Assembly (NCBI GenBank): GCA_904395805.1
Contig: CAJFNV010000007.1
Span: forward strand, 1-64,000
Direction: 5' to 3'
Origin: Candidatus Gallispira edinburgensis
Lineage (GTDB): Bacteria; Bacillota; Clostridia; Lachnospirales; CAG-274
DNA length: 64,000 nt
A program made the translations under genes and the position numbers. Under the pieces are notes generated by a model. It saw nothing but the letters and a program-made list of their open reading frames with translations. It did not search any database and was not told the origin of the DNA. Positions 5,718-37,265 of this stretch are shown here, piece by piece (positions within the stretch are counted from its first letter, which is position 1; each line of letters begins with the position of its first letter).

Positions 5718-5735
5718 ATTTTCTCTACCAATAAG

Positions 5736-5764: not shown

Positions 5765-5773
5765 TTATGTAAA

Positions 5774-17924: not shown

Positions 17925-18776
17925 TCATAAATTATTCTGCTTCTTACAAGCTACAATACAGTTATTCATAAGCATGGCAATAGTCATAGGTCCTACACCC
18001 CCCGGCACGGGAGTTATGTATGAAGCCTTCTTTTCAACCTCATCAAAGTCCACATCACCGCAGAGCTTGCCATTGTCCATTCTGTTGATACCAACATCAA
18101 TAACAACAACACCATCTTTGATCATATCCCCCTTTATAAATTTAGGGATACCTACAGCAGCCACAAGTATGTCAGCCTCTCTGCAAACAGCTTTGATATC
18201 CTTAGTTTTTGAGTGACAGGTGGTTACAGTACCGTTTTCACTTAACAAAAGCATGCCTACAGGCTTTCCTACAATATTGCTTCTGCCTACAACAACACAG
18301 TGCTTTCCCGTAATATCCACACCGCTTCTTTTAATAAGCTCAATACAGCCTGCAGGAGTACAAGCCTTTAAGTCAGCTTTGCCTATGCTTAAAAGACCTA
18401 CATTGTAAGGATGAAATCCGTCAACATCCTTTTCAGGCTTTATTCTTAACAAAACCTTGTTTTCATCTATATGCTTTGGAAGAGGCAGCTGAACCAGAAT
18501 ACCGTTGCACTCCTTGTTTGCATTTAATTCATCAATAAGTGAAAGCAGTTCTTCCTCTGTAGTATCCTCGCTTAATTCGTAATTTAATGATTTAATACCG
18601 CAGTACTCACAAGCCTTTTTCTTGTTTCTTACATATACCTGGCTTGCAGGGTCCTCGCCTACCAGAACTACAGCAAGGCAAGGCTCAATACCCTTTGCCT
18701 TTAATTCCTCTGCCTTTACCTTGACCTCATTTTTTATATCCATAGATATTGCTTTGCCGTCAATAATGTTTGCCAT
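17925..18776 (-). CDS. folD: Methylene-THF dehydrogenase / methenyl-THF cyclohydrolase
   Basis: FolD interconverts 5,10-methylene-THF, methenyl-THF and 10-formyl-THF. The 283-residue length, the PGG signature near the C-terminus (ITPVPGGVGPMTIAML), the QLPLPKH block and the NADP-binding VVGRSNIVGKP motif are all characteristic. It follows fhs and the DUF5050 gene on the same strand, so formate activation and its onward conversion are encoded together. The start has AAAGGAAGA upstream. Confidence 0.96.
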   Translation of the reverse strand: MANIIDGKAISMDIKNEVKVKAEELKAKGIEPCLAVVLVGEDPASQVYVRNKKKACEYCGIKSLNYELSEDTTEEELLSLIDELNANKECNGILVQLPLPKHIDENKVLLRIKPEKDVDGFHPYNVGLLSIGKADLKACTPAGCIELIKRSGVDITGKHCVVVGRSNIVGKPVGMLLLSENGTVTTCHSKTKDIKAVCREADILVAAVGIPKFIKGDMIKDGVVVIDVGINRMDNGKLCGDVDFDEVEKKASYITPVPGGVGPMTIAMLMNNCIVACKKQNNL

Positions 18777-18816
18777 TTTACAATCTTCCTTTCATTTAAT
18801 TTAACCTTATACAACA

Positions 18817-18841
18817 GACGGGCGGATATTCTCCACCCGTC
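18817..18841 (-). terminator. Hairpin between the lipoprotein gene and folD
   Basis: GACGGG-GGA pairs with CTCC-CCCGTC around a short loop, but no proper T run follows on the minus strand. It could be a weak terminator or a processing site within the operon. Confidence 0.4.
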
Positions 18842-18854
18842 ACCAAGCTTGTAT

Positions 18855-19844
18855 TTATTCCTTGCCGTAAAGAGTTTTCATCTTCTCCGTAAAGCTCTTC
18901 TTTAATGAAACCTTTTCAATAAAAGGTTCCTGATCCTGAAGCTTAACATAGCAATACAGGTCATCATCTGTTGCATTTAAGAAAATACCGTTGTTGTCAT
19001 AGACAAGCTGAATATCACTTCCGTCAAGATTACAGCTGTAAACCTTATTATCCTCAAGACTTGAATAATATATCCTGTCATTATATACATTGACATCAGC
19101 ACAAGGAGCCTCTACCACAGTACTTACTCCCCCTGTTTCAATGTCATAGCAGAAAATAAAGTTTGCATATTCTGCAGTTGCCCCGCTGGTTTCACTTGTA
19201 GCATTGGTGTAATAAAGCTTTCCGTTATCGTAATTCAGATAGGCAGCTGTAATATTGTTTACATCATCCAGAACTTTCTGGTTACTTCCGTCAGTATTTG
19301 CCCTTGTCACCTTACCGCCGTTGCTGTAATCAACATAATAAAGCAGTCCGTCACCGCCGATTATTGAATAATAACATACTGCATCAACTATCTTTGTAAG
19401 CTCGCTTCCGTCAGTATTTGCACTGTAAATAGCCTGATTGTCATCATAGTTTACAAAGTATATCTTATCATTATAAACTGTCATATAATAAGCAGCCTGA
19501 TTAATGATTTCAGTATTTTCACTTCCGTCGGTTTTCATTCTGAACACATGGAAGTCATCATCCTCATGCACATAGTAGACATAATCGCCTATTACATTTA
19601 TAAAATAGCTTGTGCCTTCATTGAGCTTTTCGCCCTCTCCGCCCTTTACAGATTTATAAATAGAGAAGTTGTCCTCATAATTCTGGTAATAAACAGTGTC
19701 ACCTCTCTGGCATACACTTCCTATGTTTGAAATATTTCCGTCGGTATTTCCCATATTCTCAGGCAAACTGCCATTATTACTGCCGCAGCCGGTAAGTGCC
19801 ATGCAGCCTATTAAAGCTATTGCCAGTATTTTTCTTAACTTCAT
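18855..19844 (-). CDS. DUF5050-type lipoprotein, predicted beta-propeller
   Basis: A lipoprotein signal peptide with lipobox LTGC (Cys20) leads into repeated blades of about 40 residues, each with a 'Y..N..D...IY..NTDGSE..KI' pattern (for instance YSANTDGSELTKI and TRANTDGSNQKVL). Such repeats form TolB-like propellers, and DUF5050 is the matching family in Clostridia. It should sit on the outer face of the membrane. No function is known. It lies between fhs and folD, 25 bases after fhs, although a link to one-carbon metabolism is not obvious. Confidence 0.75.
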   Translation of the reverse strand: MKLRKILAIALIGCMALTGCGSNNGSLPENMGNTDGNISNIGSVCQRGDTVYYQNYEDNFSIYKSVKGGEGEKLNEGTSYFINVIGDYVYYVHEDDDFHVFRMKTDGSENTEIINQAAYYMTVYNDKIYFVNYDDNQAIYSANTDGSELTKIVDAVCYYSIIGGDGLLYYVDYSNGGKVTRANTDGSNQKVLDDVNNITAAYLNYDNGKLYYTNATSETSGATAEYANFIFCYDIETGGVSTVVEAPCADVNVYNDRIYYSSLEDNKVYSCNLDGSDIQLVYDNNGIFLNATDDDLYCYVKLQDQEPFIEKVSLKKSFTEKMKTLYGKE

Positions 19845-19869
19845 TTATCCAAACTCCTTCACAAATTTA

Positions 19870-21537
19870 TCAGAACAATCCTGTAATATGTCCTTCACTG
19901 TCAACGTCGATATTTTCTGCTGCAGGAACCTTAGGAAGTCCGGGCATGACCATTATATTTCCTGTAATTACAACTATAAAACCTGCTCCGGCACTTACTC
20001 TGACTTCCTTAACATTTATCTTGAAACCCTCGGGTCTGCCGAGAAGTGCAGGATTATCACTTAATGAATACTGAGTCTTTGCAATACATACAGGAAGCTT
20101 GTCATAGCCTAAGCTTTCAAGTCTTGCTATCTCCTTCTTTGCCTTAGGATCAATAACAACTCCGTCAGCACCGTAAATTTCCTTTGCAACAGTATTTATC
20201 TTGTTTTCAATTGTATCATTCTCATCATAGAGCACATGGAAATTGCTTTCCTTTGTTTCAAGGACTTCAATAACCTTCTTTGCAAGGTCAATACCGCCTT
20301 CTCCGCCTTTTTCCCAAACCTTGGCAATAGCGAAATCGGCACCCATAGCCTCGCACTGTTCCTTAATATAGTTTACCTCATCTTCCGTATCTGATACAAA
20401 ATTATTTAAAGTAACTACAACAGGCACACCGAACTTGTGTAAATTTTCAATATGCTTTTCAAGATTGCAGAAACCTTTCTTTACAGCTTCGGTATTTGGT
20501 TCATTAAGCTCGGTCTTTGGAACACCGCCGTTGTATTTAAGAGCTCTTACAGTTGCAACAAGTACAACACAGTCAGGCTTAAGTCCTGCCTTTCTGCACT
20601 TGATGTCAAAGAATTTCTCGGCACCCAGATCAGAACCGAATCCTGCCTCTGTAACTGTAATGTCACATAATTCCATTGCCATCTTTGTAGCCTTTACTGA
20701 ATTACAGCCGTGAGCAATGTTAGCAAATGGTCCGCCGTGTATAATAGCAGGAGTATGCTCAAGAGTCTGAACAAGATTAGGCTTAATAGCATCCTTTAAA
20801 AGAGCAGCCATTGCACCAACGGCATTCAGATCCTTCGGAGTTACAGGCTTGCCCTCATAAGTATAGGCAACTACGATTTTTGAAAGTTTATCCTTTAAAT
20901 CATCAATATCTTCGGCAAGACAGACAATAGCCATAATTTCGGAAGCTACTGTAATAGTAAAGCCGTCCTCTCTTGTAACACCGTTTACCTTTCCCCCAAG
21001 TCCCACAACGACCTGTCTTAAAGCTCTGTCATTAAGATCCAGAACTCTTTTCCATGTAATATTGTTAGGGTCAATACCAAGGGCATTACCCTGATGTATA
21101 TGATTATCTATCATGGATGATAAAAGATTGTTTGCAGTTGTCATTGCATGAATATCACCTGTAAAGTGCAGATTGATATCTTCCATAGGTACGACCTGAG
21201 AATAGCCGCCTCCTGCAGCGCCGCCCTTGACACCCATACAAGGTCCGAGAGAAGGCTCTCTCAATGCCACAAGGGATTTCTTACCTATTTTATTTAAAGC
21301 CTGTGACAAGCCGATAGTTACAGTAGTCTTTCCCTCACCTGCGGGAGTAGGGTTAATAGCAGTAACAAGAACAAGCTTACCTTTTTTGCCTGCGTTTTTC
21401 TTTAAAACATCATCAGATAATTTTGCTTTATATTTACCGTATAACTCAAGGTCATCAGCATTGATACCGAAATTTTCAGCGACCTTTGTAATTGGTTCCA
21501 TTACACATTCCTGAGCAATTTGTATATCACTTTTCAC
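19870..21537 (-). CDS. fhs: Formate-tetrahydrofolate ligase
   Basis: Fhs activates formate onto tetrahydrofolate with ATP, as in the Wood-Ljungdahl methyl branch and purine synthesis. The 555-residue length and the blocks [19 protein letters not shown] (ATP loop) and [19 protein letters not shown](Y) are diagnostic. Translation starts at a GTG with AGGAGG eight bases upstream. It heads the fhs-DUF5050-folD group. Presence of Fhs and FolD does not by itself show acetogenesis; no other pathway gene is visible here. Confidence 0.97.
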
Positions 21538-21576
21538 AATATATTCCTCCTGTCAGATCTTATTATAATTACCATT

Positions 21577-21605
21577 ATTTTAACCCCATTAATGACCGTT
21601 GTCAA
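21577..21605 (-). promoter_or_regulatory. fhs promoter
   Basis: On the minus strand TTGACA (21600-21605), 17 bases and TAAAAT (21577-21582) form a near-consensus sigma-A promoter about 40 bases before the GTG start. Confidence 0.75.
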
Positions 21606-21710
21606 CATTTTTGTGCCGTTAAAAGTCCGTCCGTTAATTTAATCCGAAAGTTTTACATTTCTCCGCAGTTACCCAAATATATATCCATAATTTTATTAAA
21701 ACACCGTACA

Positions 21711-21750
21711 ATATTAAAAAGCCCGGCACAGCCGAGCTCTTTTAATATTG
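21711..21750 (-). terminator. Terminator after the secreted protein gene
   Basis: AATATTAAAA pairs with TTTTAATATT around a GC-containing inner stem. It lies between the secreted-protein gene and the fhs promoter. Confidence 0.6.
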
Positions 21751-21802
21751 TTATTATATATTTTTACAATTATACTGAATCCCCTGAAATTTATTTATTC
21801 CT

Positions 21803-22384
21803 TTATGCTGCACCGGCTTTATATTTTTGTAAAAGTCCCTGTCCGTTTCTTGAAAAATATATCGTATTCTTTGCCTGCCATATATTTTTGTCGAAGCCAT
21901 AAATTCTTTCAAAGTCATCAACAGATATGTAAACAAGTTCAATTCCTGATGTACCTAATTCTCCCAGAAATACAGGGCTGTATTTTAAAGTTTCGTCATG
22001 TCCCGAAATTCTGAGCTTTTTGGAATTTCTCCATACAGTAAAATACCCGTTTGCCCATGAATATCTGTCAGCAGTTTCTATTGTACAGCTGGTTGCAGCC
22101 CCTGCAGTGTTGTAAGATACATTATAAGCATAATGTGTATTTTCGGGAGACAGGAACACCGTATATGCAAGAGGAATATATAAAACATTGTTGCTGTCTA
22201 TAAGATAGGTCACCCCTTCAATGCCCTCAGCATAGTCATCTGTAAATACAGTTCTGAAACTTGTGTATCCGCTCATATCATGACCATCAATGACCGTTGC
22301 CGATGCACTTACACACATTGACATTACCATAACGGCAGAGATAACTAAACATATAATTTTATTAACAAATTTACTTTTTTTCAT
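21803..22384 (-). CDS. Secreted protein of unknown function
   Basis: The protein starts with a Sec signal peptide (FVNKIICLVISAVMVMSMC, cleavage probably after ASA). The mature part of about 160 residues has no family I can name; blocks such as VTYLIDSNNVLYIPLAYTVF and WQAKNTIYFSRNGQGLL recall the beta-rich copper-amine-oxidase N-terminal-like domains of secreted clostridial proteins. The frame is open seven codons further up, to 22405, but GGGGTG lies directly before the ATG at 22384. It has its own terminator. Confidence 0.6.
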   Translation of the reverse strand: MKKSKFVNKIICLVISAVMVMSMCVSASATVIDGHDMSGYTSFRTVFTDDYAEGIEGVTYLIDSNNVLYIPLAYTVFLSPENTHYAYNVSYNTAGAATSCTIETADRYSWANGYFTVWRNSKKLRISGHDETLKYSPVFLGELGTSGIELVYISVDDFERIYGFDKNIWQAKNTIYFSRNGQGLLQKYKAGAA

Positions 22385-22495
22385 ATTTAACACCCCGATT
22401 TCCAAATTATTTATATCTGTTTAAATATGAACACTAAGAACAAGCAATTATCTGATCCCCTGTTCCTTAATATCCTTCTTTACAAATTCCGCAAT

Positions 22496-22678
22496 TTACA
22501 ATGCAGCCGAAAATGCCACTGCAAAAGCGATCACATCAATTACTATTGCCACAATAAGGCATATGGTAGCAATTTTTTTCTTTTTAAGTCCTTCGGGAAA
22601 ATAATTTCCCATATTGTCCTTAAGCTTTCTGCTCTGTACAAAAAATACAATAGCTATAATATACAATGCTATGTCCAA
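22496..22678 (-). CDS. Small two-helix membrane protein
   Basis: The 60-residue product has a hydrophobic segment at each end (DIALYIIAIVFFV and ICLIVAIVIDVIAFAVAF) joined by a lysine-rich loop. Translation starts at a TTG with GGGAGGGG upstream. It is the last gene of the zinc-ribbon membrane cluster. I do not recognise the family. Confidence 0.55.
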   Translation of the reverse strand: MDIALYIIAIVFFVQSRKLKDNMGNYFPEGLKKKKIATICLIVAIVIDVIAFAVAFSAAL

Positions 22679-22695
22679 ATCGACCCCTCCCTTCT

Positions 22696-23244
22696 CTATC
22701 CGTTATTTTTTGCCATATATACTGCATTCTGAAATGCTCTGAGCCACTCATCAACATTATAAACAGTAAATCTGTAATCATTGTCTTTTGTGCTGAACAC
22801 TATCGTTCTTGCAAAGCCGCGCTTTTCTCCCTCACCGAACCTTACAATATCTTTAATGTCCATCTCAAAAACAAGCTTAACAGGTATCAAAAAACTGAAC
22901 ACACCCAACAGACCATACAATGCACCTGTTTTTACAGATGAACGGCCATAAAACTGCAGCTTTTTATTTGTCATTTCAAGCCGTCCCGCAACTACATTTA
23001 CTGTTCCCTTTATCCAGTCGGCACTGCCTTTCAGTATTATGTATTCTCCGCCCTTATCCATTCCTCCGTAAGGTACATTGCTCCCCTGCATAAATGCCTG
23101 TCCATTTTGCACCTGCTGATTATTGGCGTAATTTACATTGCCGATAATGCCTGTATCCTGACTATTGTTGAATTTATTTCCGCAATTTGTACAGAAAAGA
23201 GAACCGTCCTCAACGGCATTTCCGCACTTACTGCAATACTTCAT
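22696..23244 (-). CDS. Zinc-ribbon protein with GRAM/PH-like domain
   Basis: The N-terminus MKYCSKCGNAVEDGSLFCTNCGNK is a four-Cys zinc ribbon. A flexible linker and a beta-rich domain of about 100 residues follow (GSADWIKGTVNVVAGRLEMT..., FEMDIKDIVRFGEG..., YRFTVYNVDEWLRAF), resembling the GRAM/bacterial-PH fold. Such domains often bind lipid or protein at membranes. The start is the ATG at 23244, with AAAGGTGA placed correctly; a GTG three codons earlier overlaps that site. It is the ninth of ten same-strand genes. Confidence 0.6.
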   Translation of the reverse strand: MKYCSKCGNAVEDGSLFCTNCGNKFNNSQDTGIIGNVNYANNQQVQNGQAFMQGSNVPYGGMDKGGEYIILKGSADWIKGTVNVVAGRLEMTNKKLQFYGRSSVKTGALYGLLGVFSFLIPVKLVFEMDIKDIVRFGEGEKRGFARTIVFSTKDNDYRFTVYNVDEWLRAFQNAVYMAKNNG

Positions 23245-23262
23245 GTTGATCACCTTTCTGTA

Positions 23263-23853
23263 CTAATAATCAAATACTGTTTTTGTTTCCGTAAATAATT
23301 CAAGGAAGTCATGGGCAGCGTTATCTACTTTATCTTCAACATCCCACTGATAACCTTGGTAATCATAAGTATAATACATAACATCTTCATAAGCATCATA
23401 GAGTTCCTGCATCAAATTATACTTTTCTTCACAGCTCTTAGGATGGTCTTCAATATCCCCGTATACTTCGTCAACTATTTTTTTCGTTTCATTTGCTTCG
23501 TCTTCACTCATAAGGTAACCGTCACCACTTCGATAATTTACAACAGAACCTACAAATTCAAGCATTGCGCCCGAAGCAATCATACAGCTCCCGTCAAACA
23601 AGGTTTCTTGTTCTTCCATTTTTGGTATGTAAACAAACTTATATGCCGCCAGACCTCCCACCAGAAGGGCTATTATCAATATGGGCAGTACTATGACCAA
23701 AGCCTTGTTTGTTTTCTTCTTTTCCGGCATGGCGCTGTAACTGTTCATATACATACCGTTATTTAAACCTTCATCCTTTATCTGACACCCGCAGCTTGGG
23801 CAAACCTGAACATTGTCCTCAACAGCACTTCCGCATTCACTGCAATACCTCAT
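23263..23853 (-). CDS. Zinc-ribbon single-pass membrane protein
   Basis: Residues 1-25 are a zinc ribbon (CSECG...CPSCG). A membrane segment near residues 50-70 (ALVIVLPILIIALLVGGLAA) is followed by about 125 mostly acidic, helical residues. If the ribbon is inside, the C-terminal domain is outside. No family recognised. It shares its N-terminal plan with four other genes of the cluster. Confidence 0.6.
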   Translation of the reverse strand: MRYCSECGSAVEDNVQVCPSCGCQIKDEGLNNGMYMNSYSAMPEKKKTNKALVIVLPILIIALLVGGLAAYKFVYIPKMEEQETLFDGSCMIASGAMLEFVGSVVNYRSGDGYLMSEDEANETKKIVDEVYGDIEDHPKSCEEKYNLMQELYDAYEDVMYYTYDYQGYQWDVEDKVDNAAHDFLELFTETKTVFDY

Positions 23854-23892
23854 AAATATCCATCTCCTCTCTTCGATCAGTTCTGTAAATTA

Positions 23893-24252
23893 CTACAAAT
23901 AACTAAGAATATCACCTATTCCTAATGCTCCCAATACCACTCCCATTACAATACCTATAATTAAAATAGGCTTGGAACATTCCTTTTTCAATATAAGACA
24001 TACAATACCATATACCAAAGATGCACAGGCTGCCAATAGCTTTACCTTAAAATCTGTTTTTATAAACCAATCAACCGATCCCGTGGCTTCAAAAATAATA
24101 TCTAAGATTTTAGCAAATAATATAATTCCTGCATACAGATCAATAAGTATCCCACCCATTTTAAATATACTCATATGCTTTTCTGTTTTGTACTCCATAC
24201 TTTCCCGCACAAATCCTTTATTTGCATTATTTCCATCAATACTTTCTGTCAT
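23893..24252 (-). CDS. Small multi-pass membrane protein
   Basis: The 119-residue product has about 40 hydrophilic N-terminal residues and three hydrophobic segments (IDLYAGIILFAKILDII, LLAACASLVYGIVCLIL, PILIIGIVMGVVLGALGI). The last two resemble the C-terminal membrane pair of the 187-residue zinc-ribbon protein encoded at 24744-25307 (LVYSIMCLTNSKDCPSYICVIG), so it may be a paralogue that lacks the ribbon. Function unknown. Confidence 0.55.
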   Translation of the reverse strand: MTESIDGNNANKGFVRESMEYKTEKHMSIFKMGGILIDLYAGIILFAKILDIIFEATGSVDWFIKTDFKVKLLAACASLVYGIVCLILKKECSKPILIIGIVMGVVLGALGIGDILSYL

Positions 24253-24272
24253 AAAACCTACTCCTTTTTATA

Positions 24273-24731
24273 TTAAAAGCCATTACAAGCACGCCATATA
24301 ATATACATTATCATCAGTACAGTCAGTGTGACTGTTATTTTACTGTATCTTTTTATTTTAAAAGTAAGTATACAGTAAGCAGTGCTGCATATACCCATAG
24401 TCAAACATTCAAAAAAAAGCATATTATGTATAAATGGCATATCGAAATCTAAATACATATAGGAAAATATAATATCATATAAGAAAAACAATATTGCTGC
24501 TATTAAATTTACATTTATGACAACATTTAATATGCTATATATGTCTTTATTTGATTTATTAAGATATGCAATACCGTTATTATACCCCATGCCTTCTGTT
24601 GGCCCATATTCTTTGGTATTTGCAGCTTCATAATTTATTTCTGTATAATCAAAGCTCTGCTCCTTACCGCATCTGGGACATACTTTAAAATTGTCATCTA
24701 TTTCAAAGCCACACTCACCGCAATATTTCAT
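24273..24731 (-). CDS. Zinc-ribbon multi-pass membrane protein
   Basis: The N-terminal zinc ribbon (MKYCGECGFEIDDNFKVCPRCG) is followed by a polar linker and four hydrophobic segments. The ATG at 24731 is preferred over a GTG three codons upstream because GGGGTG then sits at normal spacing. No family recognised. Confidence 0.55.
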   Translation of the reverse strand: MKYCGECGFEIDDNFKVCPRCGKEQSFDYTEINYEAANTKEYGPTEGMGYNNGIAYLNKSNKDIYSILNVVINVNLIAAILFFLYDIIFSYMYLDFDMPFIHNMLFFECLTMGICSTAYCILTFKIKRYSKITVTLTVLMIMYIIWRACNGF

Positions 24732-24743
24732 AAACATCACCCC

Positions 24744-25307
24744 TTATACCAAAACTAATGAAAGCAGGATCCATGCAAAAATACAAAGACATCCCAGTAT
24801 TAATCCAATAACACAAATATATGAGGGACAGTCCTTACTATTGGTCAAACACATTATGCTGTATACTAGAGCTGTAATTCCCACAAAAAGGCTGTCATAT
24901 CCGGGGAAGTGATCATTATAATAACTGTCATAATAAAAGCCCGGCAAAAAAACTAAAACAAAAGCCACCAACGCCGTAATATCGATCACAAGTCCGAAAA
25001 CAAAGTAGACTCCCTTGCTTTTTTTATACACAGGCATACTCTGCTGTCCGTAAACATATCCGCCGTTTCCGCTGTAATAGCCTCCGTACTGCCCGTAACC
25101 TTCCTGCATACCTCCGCCGTAATTGTTTCCGTACTGTCCGTATCCGTTCTGCACATATCCTGTTCCCATATTCATATTTCCTGTTGCGGAATAGGGCTGT
25201 GTATATCCTCCCTGACCGGTATCGGCTTCGCTCAGTTTGTTTCCGCAATTTTTGCAGAACACATCATTATCCCCGTTCGCTGTGCCGCACTGGCTGCAAT
25301 ACTTCAT
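24744..25307 (-). CDS. Zinc-ribbon membrane protein with Gly/Tyr/Gln-rich linker
   Basis: The zinc ribbon CSQCGTANGDNDVFCKNCG is followed by about 65 residues rich in Gly, Tyr, Asn and Gln (repeats such as GYGQYGNNYGG and GYGQYGGYYSG), then three hydrophobic segments. The linker is low-complexity and probably disordered. The C-terminal membrane pair resembles the protein encoded at 23893-24252. The start has AGGAGGGGGAG upstream. Confidence 0.6.
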   Translation of the reverse strand: MKYCSQCGTANGDNDVFCKNCGNKLSEADTGQGGYTQPYSATGNMNMGTGYVQNGYGQYGNNYGGGMQEGYGQYGGYYSGNGGYVYGQQSMPVYKKSKGVYFVFGLVIDITALVAFVLVFLPGFYYDSYYNDHFPGYDSLFVGITALVYSIMCLTNSKDCPSYICVIGLILGCLCIFAWILLSLVLV

Positions 25308-25319
25308 ATGCTCCCCCTC

Positions 25320-27017
25320 CTACTCTATTTCAAAATCATCAATAGTAACGTTGTATGTATATCTTTGATTTCGGTAAACATATATATCATACATTGTTTC
25401 AGAAATACTTCTGCTTTCATAGCCTGACAATGTATACGTTCTGTATTCCGTATCATTATTATATTTTAATTCCACTCTGACCTCTACAGGTCTGCTTATT
25501 CTGTTTGTAAGTGTAAATGATAATTCAGCTCTGTCATTTAGGTGGAAATCCGTGTACCATGCATTAGAGCTTTTACCTGATACTCTCACAGGATTATCTA
25601 CATATTCCAGATCAGTATTAAGTTTTGCAATATATGTTTCATACTCACCCTTTACCTTATATCCCGGTGTTGTGTTTTCTATATCATAATAATATTCTTT
25701 CGCCTCATCATAATCGCCTTCATTATAGGCTGCAACAGATTTTTCAATATAACCTTTAAACTTGTTGTAATCCAGAACATCGGATTTTACAGACTGTGCA
25801 TACTCATTATCGGGAGCTATAGCAAGAGCAGCATTTGCGGACTTTAAGGCTTCATCCATCTTAAATTCATTAAACTGCTGTTTTCCCGTACTCACATAAT
25901 TCGTTATCATTGTGTTCAGAGAATTTAAAATCGTCTTCATATTCTCCGTAACATAATTCTCATCCAGTTCTGTAATTGTTTTATATACATTTCCGTATTC
26001 CCCTGCATCATATTGCTTTTTCAGATATGTATCCAGCCCATTGATAGCCTTGCCGTACAATTCCTCGGAAAGTTTAAGCTCGGGACATATATCCATTGCT
26101 TTCTTTGCTTGCGTTGCAGCATCAACATATGAATAACTATTGTATTTTTCAAGAGCCGTTTCATATATTTCTCCGGCCTCAGCTATTTTTTCAGCTTTTT
26201 CATCACATTCTTTACGCACAGGACTTAGAGGCATAACATAGCTGTAATACTTCACGGCTGAGTTGTAATCCCCCGCTGCCAGAGCTGCCTCTGCCTTTTC
26301 TATATTGCTTCCGTTAAAGCAGTGCCATACTATAAGTATAACTGCCGTAATTCCTATAATTACTCCTGCAATTTTTCCGATTGTTTTCAGAATTTTTCTT
26401 CTTTTTTCTTTTATTCTTATTGCCTCGTCAGCTTTTCGCTTAAGTTCCTCTTTCTCTTCAAGTTCTCTTTTCTTTTGCTCTTCAATAGCCTTCCTTTGCT
26501 CCTCGATTTTTTGCTGCCTTTCTTTTTCCTTTCTTTCATCAATAGCTTTTTCTTCCTCTTCCGTGAGCTCAGGTGACATTCTCAGCACCATGTCAAGCTG
26601 GTGTCCGCAGTCCCTGCATATTTTAGGTGAGTTCTCAAAGGGATCAAATTCATAAGTCTTTCCGCAATAAGTGCAGGCTCTGTAATAGCTTTCTTCATTT
26701 CCTGCCCTTAAAGGCTTATTATTTTCTTCAAACTTATTTCCGCATTTACTGCAGAATTTAGCATTTTTATCATCAAGTACATTTCCGCATCGTCCGCATA
26801 CATAGGGTGCACTGTCCACCATAACAGTTTCAGGCTTTATATCACCGTCAAATGCCGTACCGCATTTCATACAGAACTTGGCATCCTTGTTTTTTATTTC
26901 ACTCTTACAGTTTGGACAATAAAACTTCTCTACGGGGACAAGACTTGCTCCGCATTTATTACAGAATTTTGCTTCATCGGGAAGCTGCGCTTTACACTTA
27001 TAGCATCTTATACTCAT
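25320..27017 (-). CDS. Four-zinc-ribbon membrane protein with coiled coil
   Basis: This 565-residue protein is the largest of the cluster. Four Cys4 zinc ribbons lie at residues 5-22, 34-52, 74-92 and 115-137. A strongly charged coiled coil (about 150-212) leads to one membrane segment (about 215-232, GVIIGITAVILIVWHCF). An outer helical region with TPR-like periodicity follows (AALAAGDYNSAVKYYSYV, ALAIAPDNEYAQSV, AAYNEGDYDEAKEYYYDI), then a C-terminal beta domain. The layout suggests a scaffold or sensor that joins cytoplasmic ribbons to an external domain. No named family recognised. Confidence 0.65.
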   Translation of the reverse strand: MSIRCYKCKAQLPDEAKFCNKCGASLVPVEKFYCPNCKSEIKNKDAKFCMKCGTAFDGDIKPETVMVDSAPYVCGRCGNVLDDKNAKFCSKCGNKFEENNKPLRAGNEESYYRACTYCGKTYEFDPFENSPKICRDCGHQLDMVLRMSPELTEEEEKAIDERKEKERQQKIEEQRKAIEEQKKRELEEKEELKRKADEAIRIKEKRRKILKTIGKIAGVIIGITAVILIVWHCFNGSNIEKAEAALAAGDYNSAVKYYSYVMPLSPVRKECDEKAEKIAEAGEIYETALEKYNSYSYVDAATQAKKAMDICPELKLSEELYGKAINGLDTYLKKQYDAGEYGNVYKTITELDENYVTENMKTILNSLNTMITNYVSTGKQQFNEFKMDEALKSANAALAIAPDNEYAQSVKSDVLDYNKFKGYIEKSVAAYNEGDYDEAKEYYYDIENTTPGYKVKGEYETYIAKLNTDLEYVDNPVRVSGKSSNAWYTDFHLNDRAELSFTLTNRISRPVEVRVELKYNNDTEYRTYTLSGYESRSISETMYDIYVYRNQRYTYNVTIDDFEIE

Positions 27018-27101
27018 ATATTTTCACCGCCAGTTCCGGCATTCCTAATTTTTTCAGAATATGCCTTTATTAATATTGATTTTCATTACTCATCCTGTCT
27101 G

Positions 27102-27428
27102 CTATTCCTCTGCGATCTTTATATAAGCATCAGGCTTATAAAAAAGAATACCCGTCTTGCCGACACTATTGTCATAACCTGTATTGCTTATTCCAAGCTC
27201 AACAGTCATATCCTTTTCTGTAACAAATATGTCAAGAGTTTTTGTAGGCATCTTATTTATTTCCGATTCAATAATGTATCTGCCCGGTCTCAGATTTATT
27301 CTGTATTCCTGACCCTCCATAAGCTGACAAACAGCACTGTAGTTTATGTATACAACAGCAGCCGCATAATTTCTTCTCTGTCTTTGTTTTTTATAAAGGT
27401 CCTGATCCACTCGCCTTATTGTAAGCAT
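27102..27428 (-). CDS. Small beta-rich protein of the zinc-ribbon cluster
   Basis: The 108-residue protein has no signal peptide or membrane segment. Its middle, VVYINYSAVCQLMEGQEYRI with LRPGRYIIESEI after it, has the 'pG.y.i..' pattern of small beta-sandwich domains such as PEGA or DUF2846. It may bind one of its membrane neighbours. Good ribosome binding site (AAGGAGGTAAGG). Confidence 0.5.
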   Translation of the reverse strand: MLTIRRVDQDLYKKQRQRRNYAAAVVYINYSAVCQLMEGQEYRINLRPGRYIIESEINKMPTKTLDIFVTEKDMTVELGISNTGYDNSVGKTGILFYKPDAYIKIAEE

Positions 27429-27443
27429 ATTTTCCTTACCTCC

Positions 27444-27965
27444 TTAAAATCCAAACATATCCATAATGATTGAAGTCAGAAAGATCCCTATAACAATATT
27501 TACAAGACCTGCCACAATTCCCACATAGCCCATCCACTTGCCTTTGTGTTTATCCTCGTCATATGTTGCAATTCCTATAATTGAAAACAGTGTTCCCGCA
27601 CTTCCAAATATAATTGCAGCAAATAAGAAGCCGATCATACTGCACACAAAGCCTGCTATACAAAGCCCGTTCATACTCTTTGTTTCCACAGGATTCTGCA
27701 TATTTACAATAGTCGGCTGCACATATGTAGGCTGCTGAGGCTGTATGTATGGATTTTGTACATAGGGCATCTGGGGCATATTGGGCGGCATAGTATAGCC
27801 GGCTCCATTCCCGTTCAGTGGTGCTATACCGCTGTACACCTCATTACCTCCGCTATTTCCGTTGTTTACCGCATTTTCATTTTGTCCTCCCTTTAAATTT
27901 TTACCGCACCCGGGACAAAAAGATACATTTTCATCCACTTCTTTACCGCAATTTTCGCAAAACAT
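27444..27965 (-). CDS. Zinc-ribbon DUF4190-like membrane protein
   Basis: The zinc ribbon CENCGKEVDENVSFCPGCGKN is followed by a Pro/Gln/Tyr-rich linker (MPQMPYVQNPYIQPQQPTYV). Two or three membrane segments in DUF4190 style end the protein (GLCIAGFVCSMIGFLFAAII, GYVGIVAGLVNIVIGIFL). Proteins of this plan are common in Firmicutes and have no assigned role. Confidence 0.65.
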   Translation of the reverse strand: MFCENCGKEVDENVSFCPGCGKNLKGGQNENAVNNGNSGGNEVYSGIAPLNGNGAGYTMPPNMPQMPYVQNPYIQPQQPTYVQPTIVNMQNPVETKSMNGLCIAGFVCSMIGFLFAAIIFGSAGTLFSIIGIATYDEDKHKGKWMGYVGIVAGLVNIVIGIFLTSIIMDMFGF

Positions 27966-27983
27966 AGCATGACCTCCTCGTTT

Positions 27984-28403
27984 TTATTTTCTATTTATAT
28001 TTTCCTTCCCCGCTCCGCACTCAGGGCAGAAATTGGGAAATTCATCACTTTCAAAATCTGCACCGCAGCTGCCGCATGTATATGTCATTGTTCCTGTATT
28101 CCCGTTACCCTTCTCTGCAGGACCAATTCCCTGATTTAAATTCTGCTGTACTCCCTGCTGCTGCATTCCCATGGGCTGTATACCCTGAGGAGGCATTCCC
28201 TGCTGCATCATCTGCTGATACATAAGCTGCTGTCTTTTTCTCTCTCTTTCTTCGCTTTTTTTCCTGTTTTCTGACTTAATCATTGAAGTCTTTATAAAAT
28301 ATACAATTAACGCTATCACAATAATTACAGAATACATAACAATCTTTGCATTTGTCGTGTTAGTGCTTGCAAGCAAAGTCAGATTCATTAATAAACTATA
28401 CAT
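27984..28403 (-). CDS. Membrane protein with C-terminal zinc ribbon
   Basis: This is the first gene of the operon. It reverses the plan of the others: a membrane segment comes first ( IVMYSVIIVIALIVYFI ), then a charged helix, a Gln/Met/Pro-rich linker (MYQQMMQQGMPPQGIQPMGM), and a C-terminal ribbon CGSCGADFESDEFPNFCPECG. The start has AAGGGGTGG upstream. No family recognised. Confidence 0.6.
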   Translation of the reverse strand: MYSLLMNLTLLASTNTTNAKIVMYSVIIVIALIVYFIKTSMIKSENRKKSEERERKRQQLMYQQMMQQGMPPQGIQPMGMQQQGVQQNLNQGIGPAEKGNGNTGTMTYTCGSCGADFESDEFPNFCPECGAGKENINRK

Positions 28404-28477
28404 ATGACCACCCCTTTTAGTTTAAATTTCAGAATATGTTTAAGTTTAATTTGTATAATAAACATAAACATAATTTT

Positions 28478-28494
28478 AATTCTCTATAAGAATT
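28478..28494. promoter_or_regulatory. Operator-like dyad 1 (AATTCT-N5-AGAATT)
   Basis: AATTCT-CTATA-AGAATT, with one more flanking pair, overlaps the -10 box and probable transcription start of the zinc-ribbon operon. It shares both half-sites with dyad 2 at 28524-28540. Confidence 0.6.
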
Positions 28495-28520
28495 ATAATT
28501 CAATATGTCGAAAAAGTCAA
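28492..28520 (-). promoter_or_regulatory. Promoter of the zinc-ribbon membrane operon
   Basis: On the minus strand TTGACT (28515-28520), 17 bases and TATAAT (28492-28497) form a near-consensus sigma-A promoter. It is enclosed by the two dyads, so it should be repressible by the protein that binds them. Confidence 0.75.
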
Positions 28521-28523
28521 TAT

Positions 28524-28540
28524 AATTCTTGTAAAGAATT
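28524..28540. promoter_or_regulatory. Operator-like dyad 2 (AATTCT-N5-AGAATT)
   Basis: AATTCT-TGTAA-AGAATT lies inside a longer perfect inverted repeat with ten-base arms. It abuts the -35 box of the minus-strand promoter and lies about 65 bases before the divergent XRE gene. Confidence 0.6.
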
Positions 28541-28604
28541 ATATTTAAAGCTTTTATTAATATACTTATATTATCTATACCCTTATATCAGGAGCTGACT
28601 TCCC

Positions 28605-28853
28605 ATGAAACCCAGAAAACAGGAATTAGGAAATAAAAATCTCATAGGACATAAGATCACCATGCTAAGACTTGAAAGAAATATTAAACAAAAGGAGCTC
28701 CTTGCACGCCTTCAGACACGAGGTGTTGACATAAGCCCTTCCGGTCTTTCCAAACTTGAGGGACAAGTACGTCCTGTCACAGACATTGAATTAAAGGCTC
28801 TTGCCGACATTTTCAATATTTCCTATGAGGAACTTTTAGATGACACTTATTAA
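28605..28853 (+). CDS. XRE-family regulator divergent from zinc-ribbon operon
   Basis: This 82-residue Cro/CI-type protein has an HTH at about residues 15-65 (ITMLRLERNIKQKELLARL...ISPSGLSKLEGQVRPVTDIE) ending with LKALADIFNISYEELL. It is transcribed away from the zinc-ribbon operon across 200 bases that hold two identical half-site dyads, so it is the obvious candidate for their repressor. That link is inferred from position only. Its start has CAGGAGCTGA upstream. Confidence 0.8.
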   Translation: MKPRKQELGNKNLIGHKITMLRLERNIKQKELLARLQTRGVDISPSGLSKLEGQVRPVTDIELKALADIFNISYEELLDDTY

Positions 28854-28941
28854 TTTTCAAATCCGTCTTATGTTCCTTAAATCAGTATAAATAAAAAATG
28901 CTCCCCGTTCATTAGCTGGGAGCATTATTTTTTATATCTGT

Positions 28942-30114
28942 TTAATTTTCGCCATATATTTCATAATTATTCTGCATGATACCTCTATATCTCGGTGTAT
29001 TTTCAGTTTCCTCTTCTCCGCTGTTTCCCTCAGGTGCATAATAATAATCATCGGAATATCCTGCACCAATATCGTATCCCTCTTCTTCATACACTTCCTT
29101 AGCTTTTTCAGTAGTTGTTTCCACACCATCTCTTGTGGTAAATTCTATATCTATAAGACCGTTTTTTCCGATATATTCCCACATTTCTCTTACAGATGTT
29201 TCTCCTTCCGTTGCAGTTTCCGTTGTTGTCTCTGTTGTTGTTTCCGTTGTTGTCTCTGCGGTCGTCACCGTTGTCTCCGTTGTATATTCCGTAACAGGCT
29301 CTGTATAATTTCTCATATACATATTTCCTCCCGCCATTATTACAAAGAATAACAACATAACAGCAACACCTGAAAATATTATTGCTGCAGATATCATAAA
29401 ATATTTTTTATAATATATATTGACTGCCCGTTTAAGACTGACCGCACTGTTATATCTCCTGTCTGCATCTACAGCTATACATTTTCTTATTACACCGCTG
29501 TATGGTATTGCCTTAATATTTAATGCAGATTCTCTTCCTGTCAGCAAAACTATCATTAATTTTCCAACGGAATATATATCACTTCTGTTGTCGGTCTGTG
29601 CAAATCCATATTGTTCCGGTGATGCATAAAACTCTGTGCCCAGATGTGTGGTATCGGAACTGCTGTAGTCATTTTTATTTCTTGCAATACCAAAATCGAT
29701 CAAATACACCTGATTATCAAATGTAAGTATTATGTTTGATGGCTTAATATCTCTGTGTATAATATTGGCACCGTGAATTTTATCCAGTATATCACATAAC
29801 TGCGAAATTATATTATGGACCTCATTTTTACTCAGTTCTCTGTCAAATAAAAGTTTTTCCTTTAAATTTAATCCTTCAATGCACTCTTCTATTATGTAGC
29901 TTTCATTATTTATTTCAAAAATTTCATATATTTCAGGAATGCCCTTTATATTAAGTTTCTGCAGCTTTTCATATACACCGGCATTATTTACCTTTTTAAG
30001 CACAGCAGTTCTGTTGTATCTTTTATACTCAACCCGCCATGTATCCCGGCCTATTTCAGACACAATTTCACAGCCTGTGTGTCCCTTTTTAAATTCATTT
30101 ACAAAGTTTTCCAT
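28942..30114 (-). CDS. Eukaryotic-like Ser/Thr protein kinase, membrane-bound, no PASTA
   Basis: The N-terminal kinase domain (about residues 15-225) shows the Lys of AVLKKV, the catalytic HRDIKPSNI loop, the DFG of LIDFGIARN, an APE-like YASPEQYG and SDIYSVGKLM. The glycine loop is degenerate. A membrane segment (about 240-262) is followed by an outer Thr/Glu-rich stretch of TTET repeats and about 80 acidic residues. PrkC-type PASTA repeats are absent, so it is not the usual cell-wall kinase. The ATG at 30114 with GAGGT upstream is preferred over a TTG one codon earlier. It lies next to the zinc-ribbon operon. Confidence 0.88.
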   Translation of the reverse strand: MENFVNEFKKGHTGCEIVSEIGRDTWRVEYKRYNRTAVLKKVNNAGVYEKLQKLNIKGIPEIYEIFEINNESYIIEECIEGLNLKEKLLFDRELSKNEVHNIISQLCDILDKIHGANIIHRDIKPSNIILTFDNQVYLIDFGIARNKNDYSSSDTTHLGTEFYASPEQYGFAQTDNRSDIYSVGKLMIVLLTGRESALNIKAIPYSGVIRKCIAVDADRRYNSAVSLKRAVNIYYKKYFMISAAIIFSGVAVMLLFFVIMAGGNMYMRNYTEPVTEYTTETTVTTAETTTETTTETTTETATEGETSVREMWEYIGKNGLIDIEFTTRDGVETTTEKAKEVYEEEGYDIGAGYSDDYYYAPEGNSGEEETENTPRYRGIMQNNYEIYGEN

Positions 30115-30180
30115 CAAACCGACCTCAATTTATTGAATATTGCTTTTAATTATGTTATCATAAAATACGAGGTGATGCAA

Positions 30181-30603
30181 ATGAAAAAAACAGACGAATT
30201 GTTTTCCGAAATCAAAAGATCCACCCAGATAGATAAATTTTTAGATGAAAACAAAGATTCCATAAGCAATTATACACTTACTCAGTACATCGACATTTTG
30301 ATAAAAGAAAAAAATCTGACAAAAAAAGAAGTGATCAATAAATCCGAACTTAACTATACATACGGCTATCAGATCATAAACGGCACAAGAAAACCAACCA
30401 AGGATAAATTGATACAGCTTTGCTTCGGTTTGGGTGCAACGGCAGAAGAGGCAAACCGTATACTTGTATTGGCTGATGCAGGGGGCTTGTACAGCAAGAA
30501 CAGAAGAGACTGTATAATAATATTTGCCTTAAATAAAAAACTGTCATTACTTGAAACAAATGAAAAGCTTTATGAACTTGGCGAAAACATAATTGAAATA
30601 TAA
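30181..30603 (+). CDS. XRE-like helix-turn-helix protein
   Basis: This 140-residue protein has a central HTH (about residues 38-70: LTKKEVINKSELNYTYGYQI and NGTRKPTKDKLIQLCFGLGA). The ATG at 30181 has GAGGTG at the right distance; the frame continues further up to 30079 but without a site. It is divergent from the kinase across about 65 bases. A promoter TTGAAT, 17 bases, TATCAT precedes it. The pair kinase plus HTH protein may form a signalling unit. Confidence 0.75.
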   Translation: MKKTDELFSEIKRSTQIDKFLDENKDSISNYTLTQYIDILIKEKNLTKKEVINKSELNYTYGYQIINGTRKPTKDKLIQLCFGLGATAEEANRILVLADAGGLYSKNRRDCIIIFALNKKLSLLETNEKLYELGENIIEI

Positions 30604-30622
30604 AGAGCTGAGATTTAACACC

Positions 30623-32059
30623 TCAGCTCTTTATATTTCCGGAATAATACTTCTGATTTTTACTTCTCGGCTTATCAGGCATTGTCATATGCAAAACACC
30701 TGTATTTACCAATGGGTTAATATACCTTCCCGTTACATATCCTATGGAAGAAATCCCAAGAAAATCAGCAATTTCCCTCTTGCTTTTTGGGACCTTGCAA
30801 AACTCAATTATATTTCCTTTTTCAACATTAGTCTCCCTTTTACCGTTGTAAAACTTAACATTAAAGCTTCCTCTTGCATTTTCAAACACAGGCGGTTCAA
30901 GCCCCATTTCTTCCATTTCTCTTCTCATAGTTGGTATTCCCGAATATCTGTTTTCCGTTATTCCCAGCACTTCAAGAACATTTGCAATAACAGGATTTCT
31001 TGTGTCTGCCTGCACCTTACCCAAATCATTTAATGTAAGTCTTCCATACAACCCGCCCGGATTATGGATCTCAATTCTGTCCCTGAACATTTTTATTTCA
31101 ATTGGCATATTTTCAGAATACATACTGTAATCTCTGTGCACAAGAGCGTTTAATATTGCTTCTCTTAAAGCATTTAAAGGATATTCGCTTCTATCCTCTC
31201 TCTTACCGTTTTTAGGATTAATAATCGTACTATGTCCCATATTTCTGTTTACAAAACTTACAGCCTCGTCCAGCATAGTTTGTATATTTCCGTTAATTCT
31301 TTTGTTGTCTATAAATCTTTCATTATTTTCACCAATTTCGCCCACTTCCAGGCCGGGAATAACAACACATATTATTCCAAGCTGAGGCAAGACAGCCTGG
31401 GGATAATCGGTAAAGAGCATAAGGGATGCTATTGTAAGTTTTTCATCCTTTGTAATCGAAAACAATTTATAAAGCATTTCCTCCGGCATTTTAGATAAAT
31501 TAGGCTTATCTTTTTTCAGTTTAATAAGATACTCACTTACCATATCCCTGTTAAGCATATATAAGTCAGATCTTTCAATGACCCTTATGTCATCCTCCTG
31601 ATTTTTTCTGAAAGCTTCATAACTGTATATTTCATACTCAGTCATAAGAACATCGGCATCCCCCACTCTTATATATGAACCCTTTATTCTTCCCACTCCC
31701 GAATAAAAGCATGGTCTTTCACTTACGTCAGCAGCAGGAATTTCAGCCGACACAACAACTTTTCCGTCAATCTCTGTCACTGTAAAAAGGGGTCTTACAA
31801 CAGGACTCATCTGCAACCCCTGATTTGTTACCTGGGTCTGCAAGTCCTTTGGATCATATACCCCTACCACATTATAGTCCTTATTTTCATCAACACCGAA
31901 TATTATAATACCGCCCTCGTCCTGATTGGAGAAACTGGACAATGTATCAAAAAGTTTCTTAGGCACACCGTTATTTGCTGCTTTCAGTTCTATTGTCTGT
32001 GTTTCGGTTTTTATATTCTGTATTTTTTTTATTAAATTTTTCAAATCTTCTTCTATCAT
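30623..32059 (-). CDS. AlbA_2 (Schlafen-like) protein with C-terminal ATPase-type domain
   Basis: Residues about 15-130 match the AlbA_2/Schlafen-like domain (IELKAANNGVPKKLFDTLSS...GGIIIFGVDE). The middle-to-C-terminal part has the HATPase_c_4 pattern NALREAILNALVHRDYS and IEIHNPGGLYGRL. A winged-helix-like end follows (KSKREIADFLGISSIGYVTG). Proteins of this plan are widespread, usually called putative transcriptional regulators, and some take part in defence; none has a role I can assign here. Strong ribosome binding site GGAGG before the ATG. Confidence 0.8.
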   Translation of the reverse strand: MIEEDLKNLIKKIQNIKTETQTIELKAANNGVPKKLFDTLSSFSNQDEGGIIIFGVDENKDYNVVGVYDPKDLQTQVTNQGLQMSPVVRPLFTVTEIDGKVVVSAEIPAADVSERPCFYSGVGRIKGSYIRVGDADVLMTEYEIYSYEAFRKNQEDDIRVIERSDLYMLNRDMVSEYLIKLKKDKPNLSKMPEEMLYKLFSITKDEKLTIASLMLFTDYPQAVLPQLGIICVVIPGLEVGEIGENNERFIDNKRINGNIQTMLDEAVSFVNRNMGHSTIINPKNGKREDRSEYPLNALREAILNALVHRDYSMYSENMPIEIKMFRDRIEIHNPGGLYGRLTLNDLGKVQADTRNPVIANVLEVLGITENRYSGIPTMRREMEEMGLEPPVFENARGSFNVKFYNGKRETNVEKGNIIEFCKVPKSKREIADFLGISSIGYVTGRYINPLVNTGVLHMTMPDKPRSKNQKYYSGNIKS

Positions 32060-32223
32060 AAAAAAACCTCCAAACCATTTCTACAAATATTATATCCCAT
32101 TTTATAAAATTTGTAAACACAATTTGAAAGTTTTCACATTTTTTGTAAATTTGGTTATTAAATTTTATAAATCTGCAGCAAATTTATAAAATTTTTATTA
32201 AATTTAATAATTTTTATTATTTT

Positions 32224-32685
32224 TTATAAATATTTGCAAATTTTATTTAACAGCCCCTGACAGCCCTCATTAATATCCTCATAAGTCACATCGAAATTTC
32301 CCGTATACCAGGGATCAGCAATACTCTGTCCCTTTCTGTCTGTAAAATCCAGAAGCAGATACACCTTATTTTTAATATCTCTGCCTGTAATTCTTTCAAT
32401 ATTTCTTATATTGTTGCTGTCCATAGCCACAATATAGTCATAAAAATCATAATCCTCTTTTGTAAGCCTTACAGCTCTGTGGTCACCACAGGGAATACCC
32501 ATTTCATGAAGCTTCTTTTTTGTGCCCCTGTGAACAGGATTACCCAGTTCCTCGCAGCTTGTAGCAGAGGAATTTATAATAAACTCCTTCTCAAGTCCCT
32601 TCTCCCTGACCATATGCTTAAATACAAACTCCGCCATCGGCGAACGGCATATATTGCCGTGACAAACAAACATTACCTTTATCAT
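32224..32685 (-). CDS. Low-molecular-weight protein-tyrosine phosphatase
   Basis: The P-loop FVCHGNICRSPMAE near the N-terminus is the C(X)5R active site of this family, and the general-acid Asp is in DPWYTGNFD near the C-terminus. Length (about 153 residues) is standard. It removes phosphate from protein tyrosine, in some relatives arginine, in the cytoplasm. The ATG at 32685 has AAGGAG seven bases upstream; a TTG two codons earlier is less likely. It lies alone among accessory genes. Confidence 0.92.
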   Translation of the reverse strand: MIKVMFVCHGNICRSPMAEFVFKHMVREKGLEKEFIINSSATSCEELGNPVHRGTKKKLHEMGIPCGDHRAVRLTKEDYDFYDYIVAMDSNNIRNIERITGRDIKNKVYLLLDFTDRKGQSIADPWYTGNFDVTYEDINEGCQGLLNKICKYL

Positions 32686-32712
32686 AACCAAACTCCTTTT
32701 TACATCTATATT

Positions 32713-33087
32713 CTATTTCATACAATTCATAACTACACTTATCATCATTTCTTTTTCTTTCGGATTTGATTCCGCTATCATTATAGTAAGGGCTACAAGT
32801 GTATGGTCATCGATAAGTTTCTGACCATCTTCAAACAATGCCCCGTTTCTGTCAAGAAAATACAAAAACATAGCCGCAGAAATCCTCTTGTTTCCATCGG
32901 AAAAGCTATGATTTTTTGTAACAAAATACAGCAGATTTGCCGCTTTTTCTTCAAGGGTCGGATACAGATCCTCCCCTCCGTAGCTTTGATAAATTGCTCC
33001 TATGCTTCCCTTAAAAGAATCGTCCTTTTCATTCCCGAATAATGAACTTTCATCTCCGAATTTCATACTGTCATTACTTTTCTGCAC
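32713..33087 (-). CDS. Fic-domain half of a frameshifted RhuM-Fic protein
   Basis: The frame holds a Fic/Doc domain with the motif HSFSDGNKRISAA, in which the His and the DGNKR loop are intact. Before it, SMKFGDESSLFGNEKDDSFKG is the region that normally joins RhuM and Fic in one protein. It begins inside the end of the upstream RhuM frame, shifted by one base, and its only early start is a GTG without a ribosome binding site. Fic domains transfer AMP or other groups to proteins. It is probably a broken part of one gene with 33063-33626. Confidence 0.65.
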   Translation of the reverse strand: MQKSNDSMKFGDESSLFGNEKDDSFKGSIGAIYQSYGGEDLYPTLEEKAANLLYFVTKNHSFSDGNKRISAAMFLYFLDRNGALFEDGQKLIDDHTLVALTIMIAESNPKEKEMMISVVMNCMK

Positions 33088-33626: not shown

Positions 33627-33725
33627 TCATATCACATCCCTACAATTCATACCAACAACAACTAATAAATTCAAATTACACTAAAAGTATACCATATAAC
33701 AATAATTTTGACAATATTTCCCCAC

Positions 33726-33764
33726 AAAAACACCACCGGCAGCCAAATCTAACCGCCGGTGGTA
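33726..33764 (-). terminator. Terminator after hydrolase gene
   Basis: ACCACCGGC pairs with GCCGGTGGT around a 14-base loop, followed on the minus strand by GTTTTTG. Confidence 0.8.
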
Positions 33765-33773
33765 CCTTACTTA

Positions 33774-35107: not shown

Positions 35108-35280
35108 TTAAAATCCTCCTGTTATTTTATTTAATTCAGCAAACTATTCCGGCTAAAGCAATACAAAGCTTCACCTCTGTCACCTCTCCTTTTTACATCT
35201 ATATACACTTTACAATTTACTTTTGTTACAGAGATTATACCACAAATAAGGTCTAACTTCAATTTATTTACATATATTAA

Positions 35281-35312
35281 AATACTGCCTCAGGTTCCCC
35301 CTCGGCAGTATT
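35281..35312 (-). terminator. Terminator after the cobalamin fusion gene
   Basis: AATACTGCC pairs with GGCAGTATT; on the minus strand a short TTTT follows. Confidence 0.6.
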
Positions 35313-35331
35313 ACATAAACATATTAATTTT

Positions 35332-37251: not shown

Positions 37252-37265
37252 ACATATACCCCCGA

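Follow-up and report, generated by a model that had tools for sequence, protein, structure and literature searches.

The 64,000-nucleotide stretch considered here, referred to as the window, corresponds to positions 1 to 64,000 of contig CAJFNV010000007.1 of the Clostridia member Candidatus Gallispira edinburgensis and contains, between positions 22496 and 28403, a run of genes encoding zinc-ribbon and membrane proteins. As described in an earlier sequence-only reading of this DNA, ten open reading frames (ORFs) are present here on the same, minus strand, separated by short gaps; on the basis of the ORF list, these are named g1 (28403-27984) to g10 (22678-22496). Successive gaps from g1 to g10 measure 18, 15, 84, 12, 3, 20, 39, 9 and 17 bp, such that all fall between 3 and 39 bp except for the 84 bp before g4, and an obvious Shine-Dalgarno sequence accompanies the majority of the genes. 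Ribbons containing four cysteines (Cys4) had earlier been assigned to six genes; seven were counted here (g1, g2, g4, g5, g6, g8 and g9), together bearing ten ribbons, four of which belong to g4, with g3, g7 and g10 being ribbon-less. The 2.5-Mb genome has ten Zn_Ribbon_1 matches, and eight of them fall within a 4-kb stretch at this position, a clustering that exceeds chance. When the positive-inside rule is applied to the sequences, the ribbons are all predicted to face the cytoplasm, including that of g1.

The first gene, g1, encodes a 139-residue protein with an N-terminal membrane segment and a C-terminal Cys4 ribbon, and hence departs from the N-terminal ribbon placement that had been described as usual. 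This is followed by g2 (27444-27965; 173 residues), comprising a ribbon, a low-complexity linker and two membrane segments and resembling DUF4190 below the cut-off; by g3 (27102-27428; 108 residues), a small soluble protein without an assigned family that looks beta-rich; and by g4 (25320-27017; 565 residues), considered below. Next come g5 (24744-25307; 187 residues), with a ribbon, a Gly/Tyr-rich linker and a membrane part; g6 (24273-24740; 155 residues), with a ribbon and a membrane part; g7 (23893-24252; 119 residues), a paralog of the membrane part of g5; and g8 (23263-23853; 196 residues), with a ribbon, one membrane segment and an outer domain. The run closes with g9 (22696-23253; 185 residues), in which a ribbon precedes a candidate PH/GRAM-like fold, and g10, a small membrane protein of 60 residues that begins with a TTG codon. 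Single proteins joining a ribbon to a membrane segment occur commonly in Firmicutes, mostly without an explanation. In a search of curated families, the matches from g1-g10 were limited to generic ribbons, a sub-threshold tetratricopeptide repeat (TPR) match in g4, the likewise sub-threshold resemblance of g2 to DUF4190 and, in g8, an N-terminus like that of TcaA; no domain of a toxin, nuclease or any other effector was found in these family searches. The likeness of g8 to TcaA (NF053815) lies in its N-terminal ribbon and the membrane segment after it (residues 1-64; 22.8 bits), but this score is far below the 550-bit cut-off, the outer domain is unmatched, and g8 is encoded within an operon of many genes that has XRE and kinase genes as neighbors.

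The protein earlier described as large, with a coiled coil and an outer TPR-like part, is g4, and both elements are visible in its AlphaFold model, together with a membrane segment and a C-terminal beta domain. In this model, which was built from three sequences and has a mean pLDDT (predicted local distance difference test score) of 79.8, with values mostly of about 85-97 in the TPR part, the four ribbons are followed by a long helix corresponding to the coiled coil (residues 153-211), a membrane helix (222-248), a series of helix pairs (251-472) and a six-strand beta domain (477-564). Although the TPR sequence score of 23.5 lies just under the cut-off of 27, the outer part has the superhelix of helix pairs by which TPR proteins are recognized, as judged from the predicted structure. 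Fold matches to g4, at low coverage, included consensus TPR structures as well as glycosidase beta-sandwich parts. The proposed GRAM/PH-like domain fared less clearly. No PH or GRAM family was matched by g9 in Pfam up to E = 1, although the strand and helix order of its C-terminal domain is PH-like and the top fold matches are mostly PH domains, the best of these reaching E = 0.06 and none E ≤ 0.001 with an underlying single-sequence model that is poor (pLDDT 43). Such a model was rejected as proof of a PH domain; a PH/GRAM-like fold in g9 is plausible. Finally, g7 aligns with the membrane part of g5 with a Smith-Waterman z-score of 13.8 against shuffled sequences, and g6 is weakly related to g5 (z = 5.4), indicating that tandem duplication built part of the operon. 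The ribbons are alike across most members.

Upstream of g1 lies a promoter, TTGACT-17-TATAAT (28492-28520, minus strand), that matches 11 of 12 consensus positions, faces g1 and is the only strong promoter in the region. Promoter-like sites internal to the run on the minus strand are about as numerous as in shuffled sequence, and so are terminator-like sites, with no internal terminator standing out. Beyond g10, a gene for an exported protein, SP200 (21803-22384, minus strand), begins after 111 bp and is followed by a probable terminator, formed by a hairpin and T-run (21715-21745, near 21730, minus strand; -17 kcal/mol). The expectation that these genes form a single operon rather than being expressed from separate promoters is thus supported, with the transcription unit probably extending from g1 to SP200 and comprising eleven genes.

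The region between g1 and the next gene, XRE1 (28605-28853, plus strand), which encodes an 82-residue regulator of the Cro/C1 type with HTH_26 and HTH_3 matches above cut-off, contains two copies of a palindrome fitting the pattern TAATTCYNNNNNRGAATTA. One copy (28523-28541; TAATTCTTGTAAAGAATTA) abuts the -35 box of the g1 promoter and the other (28477-28495; TAATTCTCTATAAGAATTA) overlaps the -10 box, a placement that, as read from the DNA, is a layout for repression. In the genome's own 2.5 Mb, where the regulon was sought by pattern search only, these two are the only exact matches, with a reversed control pattern yielding none.

Close homologs of XRE1 were found in eight of 48 family genomes, where they occupy nine loci, namely, that of the window and eight others. 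The ten palindromes that were read first, from five of these loci, all fit the pattern. Both copies are exact at seven of the nine loci; in G011 one copy is exact and the other degenerate, while one of the two loci in G028 (C61) has a single copy. The half-sites are 5 bp apart and the two palindromes are spaced by 46-63 bp from center to center. At all nine loci, a promoter matching 11-12 of 12 consensus positions and starting 76-85 bp before XRE1 faces the adjoining genes, termed cargo here. Paired sites are found, across the 48 family genomes, in those with a close XRE1; single matches elsewhere in other genomes, inspected at six loci, stand beside unrelated genes or inside coding sequence and were taken as chance. 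Because the double operator and promoter recur beside the eight further homologs, XRE1 is likely, as a candidate, the repressor of the g1 operon, supporting the earlier suggestion that the adjacent XRE regulator controls these genes. Moreover, since operators persist at two XRE1 loci without a nearby XRE2 or kinase gene (G019 C25 and G028 C61), it is likely XRE1 that binds them. At the second G028 locus (C62), another exact operator pair (L071:6302-6378) lies upstream of a gene for a 258-residue protein that adjoins the XRE1 locus and may mark a second target promoter. More distant XRE1 relatives (L201:3644-3877 and L203:2461-2697) were seen by eye to lie near MazF-like and restriction-like genes; no TAATTCY palindrome is present upstream of either.

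The arrangement recalls the controller (C) proteins of restriction-modification systems. C.Csp231I recognizes CTAAG-N5-CTTAG sites separated by an 18-bp spacer (PMC4321490), and shares with the XRE1 locus a small helix-turn-helix protein and two separated palindromes with half-sites 5 bp apart that flank a promoter. By contrast, the XRE1 locus lacks restriction-modification genes, its putative operators lie between divergent genes, and both the recognition sequence and the spacing (46-63 bp) differ. XRE1 thus has the size (about 80-100 residues) and helix-turn-helix of a controller protein and two palindromes that appear to be operators, but controls neither a restriction endonuclease nor a methyltransferase and, for this reason, is not classed as one. 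No match to XRE1 was found among PDB sequences at E ≤ 0.001, and a literature search of incomplete coverage returned no description of this arrangement.

Beyond XRE1 lie KIN (28942-30114, minus strand), encoding a membrane Ser/Thr kinase, and, divergent from it, XRE2 (30178-30603, plus strand), encoding a putative regulator of 141 residues with no Pfam family. The catalytic motifs of KIN are intact (VLK38, with its Lys38; HRD120; DFG140; and SPE165) and, like its single membrane segment, are those of PknB/Stk1 kinases, whereas no PASTA domain was detected in a Pfam scan and the score against the PASTA kinase family (NF033483) was 123 bits, relative to a cut-off of 450. A search for an operator between XRE2 and KIN led to a conserved promoter, with no palindrome. 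Relatives of XRE2 were found in 28 of the 48 family genomes, with a kinase gene adjoining XRE2 at most loci examined, while a scan of named genomes with an XRE2 alignment returned seven loci, corresponding to six known family loci and one distant actinobacterial match. Seven genomes, namely that of the window, G006, G011, G013, G024, G028 and G037, contain an XRE2 that is 62-74% identical to the window's, and in all seven a close XRE1 lies within a few kb; G019 has XRE1 alone. The overlap (seven genomes within eight of 48) gives a hypergeometric probability of 1.1e-7, which assumes independent genomes, which these are not. Two gene arrangements persist, cargo-XRE1-KIN-XRE2 in the window, G013, G024 and G028 and KIN-XRE2-cargo-XRE1 in G037 and G006, with KIN-XRE2-XRE1 in G011. 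That linkage outlasts such rearrangement suggests that XRE1 and the KIN/XRE2 pair may be functionally tied, in line with the earlier proposal that the kinase possibly takes part in control.

Elsewhere, at L189 (G043 C14), two XRE2-like genes flank a kinase gene, and several ribbon genes lie in the vicinity, as does an XRE1-like gene (38%). Ribbon genes were also counted near (15 of 366) and away from (3 of 297) XRE2/KIN pairs; the difference (p = 0.016) is suggestive but was not used as evidence, the near set containing the window's own operon and two of the away matches being loci picked for their ribbons.

What stands behind the shared promoter differs from relative to relative. In G037, a member of another genus, the cargo comprises a counterpart of g2, also a ribbon membrane protein, and a g4 homolog of 38% identity. 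In G013, the cargo encodes a stalk-domain protein, an SP200 homolog, a lipoprotein-like protein and a 542-residue ribbon, transmembrane and TPR protein (L070:2325-3953); in G006, an SP200 homolog, a lipoprotein-like protein and a stalk-domain protein; in G024, an exported GLUG protein; and at the C61 locus of G028, a dockerin protein. The 542-residue protein of G013 shares with g4 its overall plan and its position near an XRE1-KIN pair but has one ribbon rather than four, is 22% identical in the aligned part and shows a weak FxLYD match in its C-terminal part. Among 392 genomes of the order, g4 occurs in two, with three proteins in all. The third of these is encoded by a second G037 gene (C55; L032:2872-4557; 36% identical to g4) that has neither XRE nor kinase genes beside it, and a gene for a one-ribbon membrane protein (5135-5833) lies some 600 bp upstream. 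For g9, a search of 196 genomes returned no full-length homolog. The genes of the operon that recur under the promoter are thus g4 and the g2-like gene, in G037, and SP200, in G013 and G006. As such, two parts of the sequence-only reading do not hold up: the conserved co-occurrence of at least four of the operon genes with the XRE and kinase genes that would have favored a system is not seen, only g4 and the g2-like gene recurring together, in one other genome; and the view of the ten genes as one conserved modular system is not supported, given that several are lineage-specific or tandem paralogs, that the cargo changes between relatives and that the DNA segment holding them is absent from two genomes of the same genus, as described next. 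That view is replaced by one of a conserved control hub with exchangeable cargo, of which the ribbon operon is the cargo of one lineage.

The operon and hub together form most of a segment of about 10.6 kb (21610-32219) that contains SP200, g1-g10, XRE1, KIN, XRE2 and an SLFN-like gene (30623-32059, minus strand) encoding AlbA_2 and HATPase_c_4 domains. A homolog of the latter, 52% identical, adjoins another XRE2/KIN pair in G004 (L072:8004-9437), while a perfect 20-bp inverted repeat at 30595-30639, between the converging XRE2 and SLFN-like genes, is a strong candidate for a two-way terminator. The segment is flanked by genes for formate-tetrahydrofolate ligase (FTHFS; 19870-21537) and an LMW-PTP phosphatase (32224-32691). 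In two genomes of the same genus, G005 and G003, the phosphatase and ligase genes are immediate neighbors, the 10.6 kb that separates them in the window being missing; in G005, where the ligase is 93% identical, homologs of window positions 18390-21609 and 32220-32686 are only 34 bp apart. Being absent from these two genomes, the segment is considered an accessory island. At its edges, a search for a target-site duplication returned only AT-rich matches of 8-10 bp, a chance-level result, and no RNA elements or tRNA were found at the island. Serine recombinases of one family lie close to XRE1 in G037 and in the vicinity of the G019 and G013 loci. Downstream, between the phosphatase gene and prfB (32692-37265), RhuM-like, hydrolase, Vat-like acetyltransferase and CbiE/T-like genes were noted by eye that are missing at this position in G005; the neighborhood looks like an insertion hotspot. 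A phage or plasmid origin was considered for g4 and rejected, no relative having been found in viral, plasmid and phage collections.

Taken together, this organization strongly suggests that a dimer of XRE1 would bind the two palindromes around the single strong promoter and so keep the operon off. To judge by the persistent linkage of these genes, a signal relayed by KIN, the membrane kinase, with XRE2 as its partner could relieve this repression. The eleven-gene transcript would then yield membrane-associated proteins whose zinc ribbons might serve in the cytoplasm as docking points between proteins, with g4 spanning the membrane and presenting its TPR superhelix and beta domain outside the cell, where the exported SP200 would also act. 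Functionally, the most likely outcome would be an inducible assembly associated with the envelope and acting to sense, protect or remodel the cell surface. This envelope reading, envelope sensing included, is strengthened by the cargo behind the same promoter in relatives being mostly exported or membrane proteins, as is the case in four of the seven hub genomes other than the window's (G006, G013, G037 and G024). Several points weigh on the other side. The cargo is not envelope-like at the C62 locus of G028, where it encodes soluble proteins (and where the second operator pair is found), nor in G019, where it encodes an HSP90-like ATPase. The idea of a fixed complex is weakened by only g4, the g2-like gene and SP200 recurring. 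The outer part of KIN is much shorter than in close homologs (391 versus about 555-592 residues), which could reflect loss or replacement of its sensor part, and travel on one island may partly explain the co-linkage of XRE1 with KIN and XRE2. With these points set against each other, confidence is evenly balanced that this locus represents a cargo operon carried by an accessory island, repressed by XRE1, signaled to by KIN and XRE2 and encoding an envelope-associated assembly.

Of the other explanations, the one that survives best, albeit as an unlikely one, holds that there is no single complex, with tandem duplicates and lineage-specific small membrane proteins being co-transcribed but functionally loose. 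The membrane part common to g5, g6 and g7, the similar ribbons of most members, the lack of a full-length homolog of g9 in the 196 genomes and the recurrence elsewhere of only two of the ten genes all agree with this. Yet, membrane complexes often hold paralogous subunits, a single, tightly controlled transcript on which the genes have ribosome-binding sites of their own suggests that their joint synthesis is selected for, and another genus has both the g2-like gene and g4 behind the same promoter.

Slightly less probable still is that the control cassette serves genes for conflict or anti-phage functions that are exchanged rapidly, with the ribbon proteins forming a membrane-acting defense or immunity module silenced by XRE1 until infection. 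The island is either present or absent, serine recombinases lie near three hub or XRE1 loci, an SLFN/AlbA gene lies within the island, the G019 cargo is an HSP90-like ATPase, distant XRE1 relatives neighbor the MazF-like and restriction-like genes noted by eye, and the pairing of a small XRE protein with two palindromes is reminiscent of restriction-modification controllers. Against this, scanning window proteins with PADLOC, the operon being represented by g3, g4 and g9 only, returned generic kinase-domain, helix-turn-helix and SLFN/pAgo-type matches and no system-specific component, the kinase matches being to generic kinase domains. That g3, g4 and g9 match no defense family and that g1-g10 contain no effector domain render this explanation weaker, as do the lack of g4 relatives in the phage, plasmid and viral collections and the stalk-domain, lipoprotein-like and dockerin proteins in the cargo of sister loci. 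Lastly, that XRE2, conserved and within 2 kb, rather than XRE1 binds the double operator is highly improbable, as operators stand with XRE1 at two loci lacking XRE2, and the XRE2/KIN intergenic region lacks such a palindrome.

In the preferred reading of an XRE1-controlled, envelope-associated cargo operon, many ribbon-membrane proteins are brought together under shared control, and because a candidate repressor, an exact operator and a linked kinase come with them, their function becomes testable. A broader proposal, offered tentatively, is that the conserved control cassette, comprising XRE1, the double operator, the promoter and the kinase/XRE2 pair, may be a docking unit for interchangeable surface or envelope gene sets in one family of Clostridia, with the set plugged in here making up a new transmembrane machine of multiple zinc-ribbon subunits that is built around g4. 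If true, inducible surface modules could be found by scanning for operator pairs beside XRE1-type genes.

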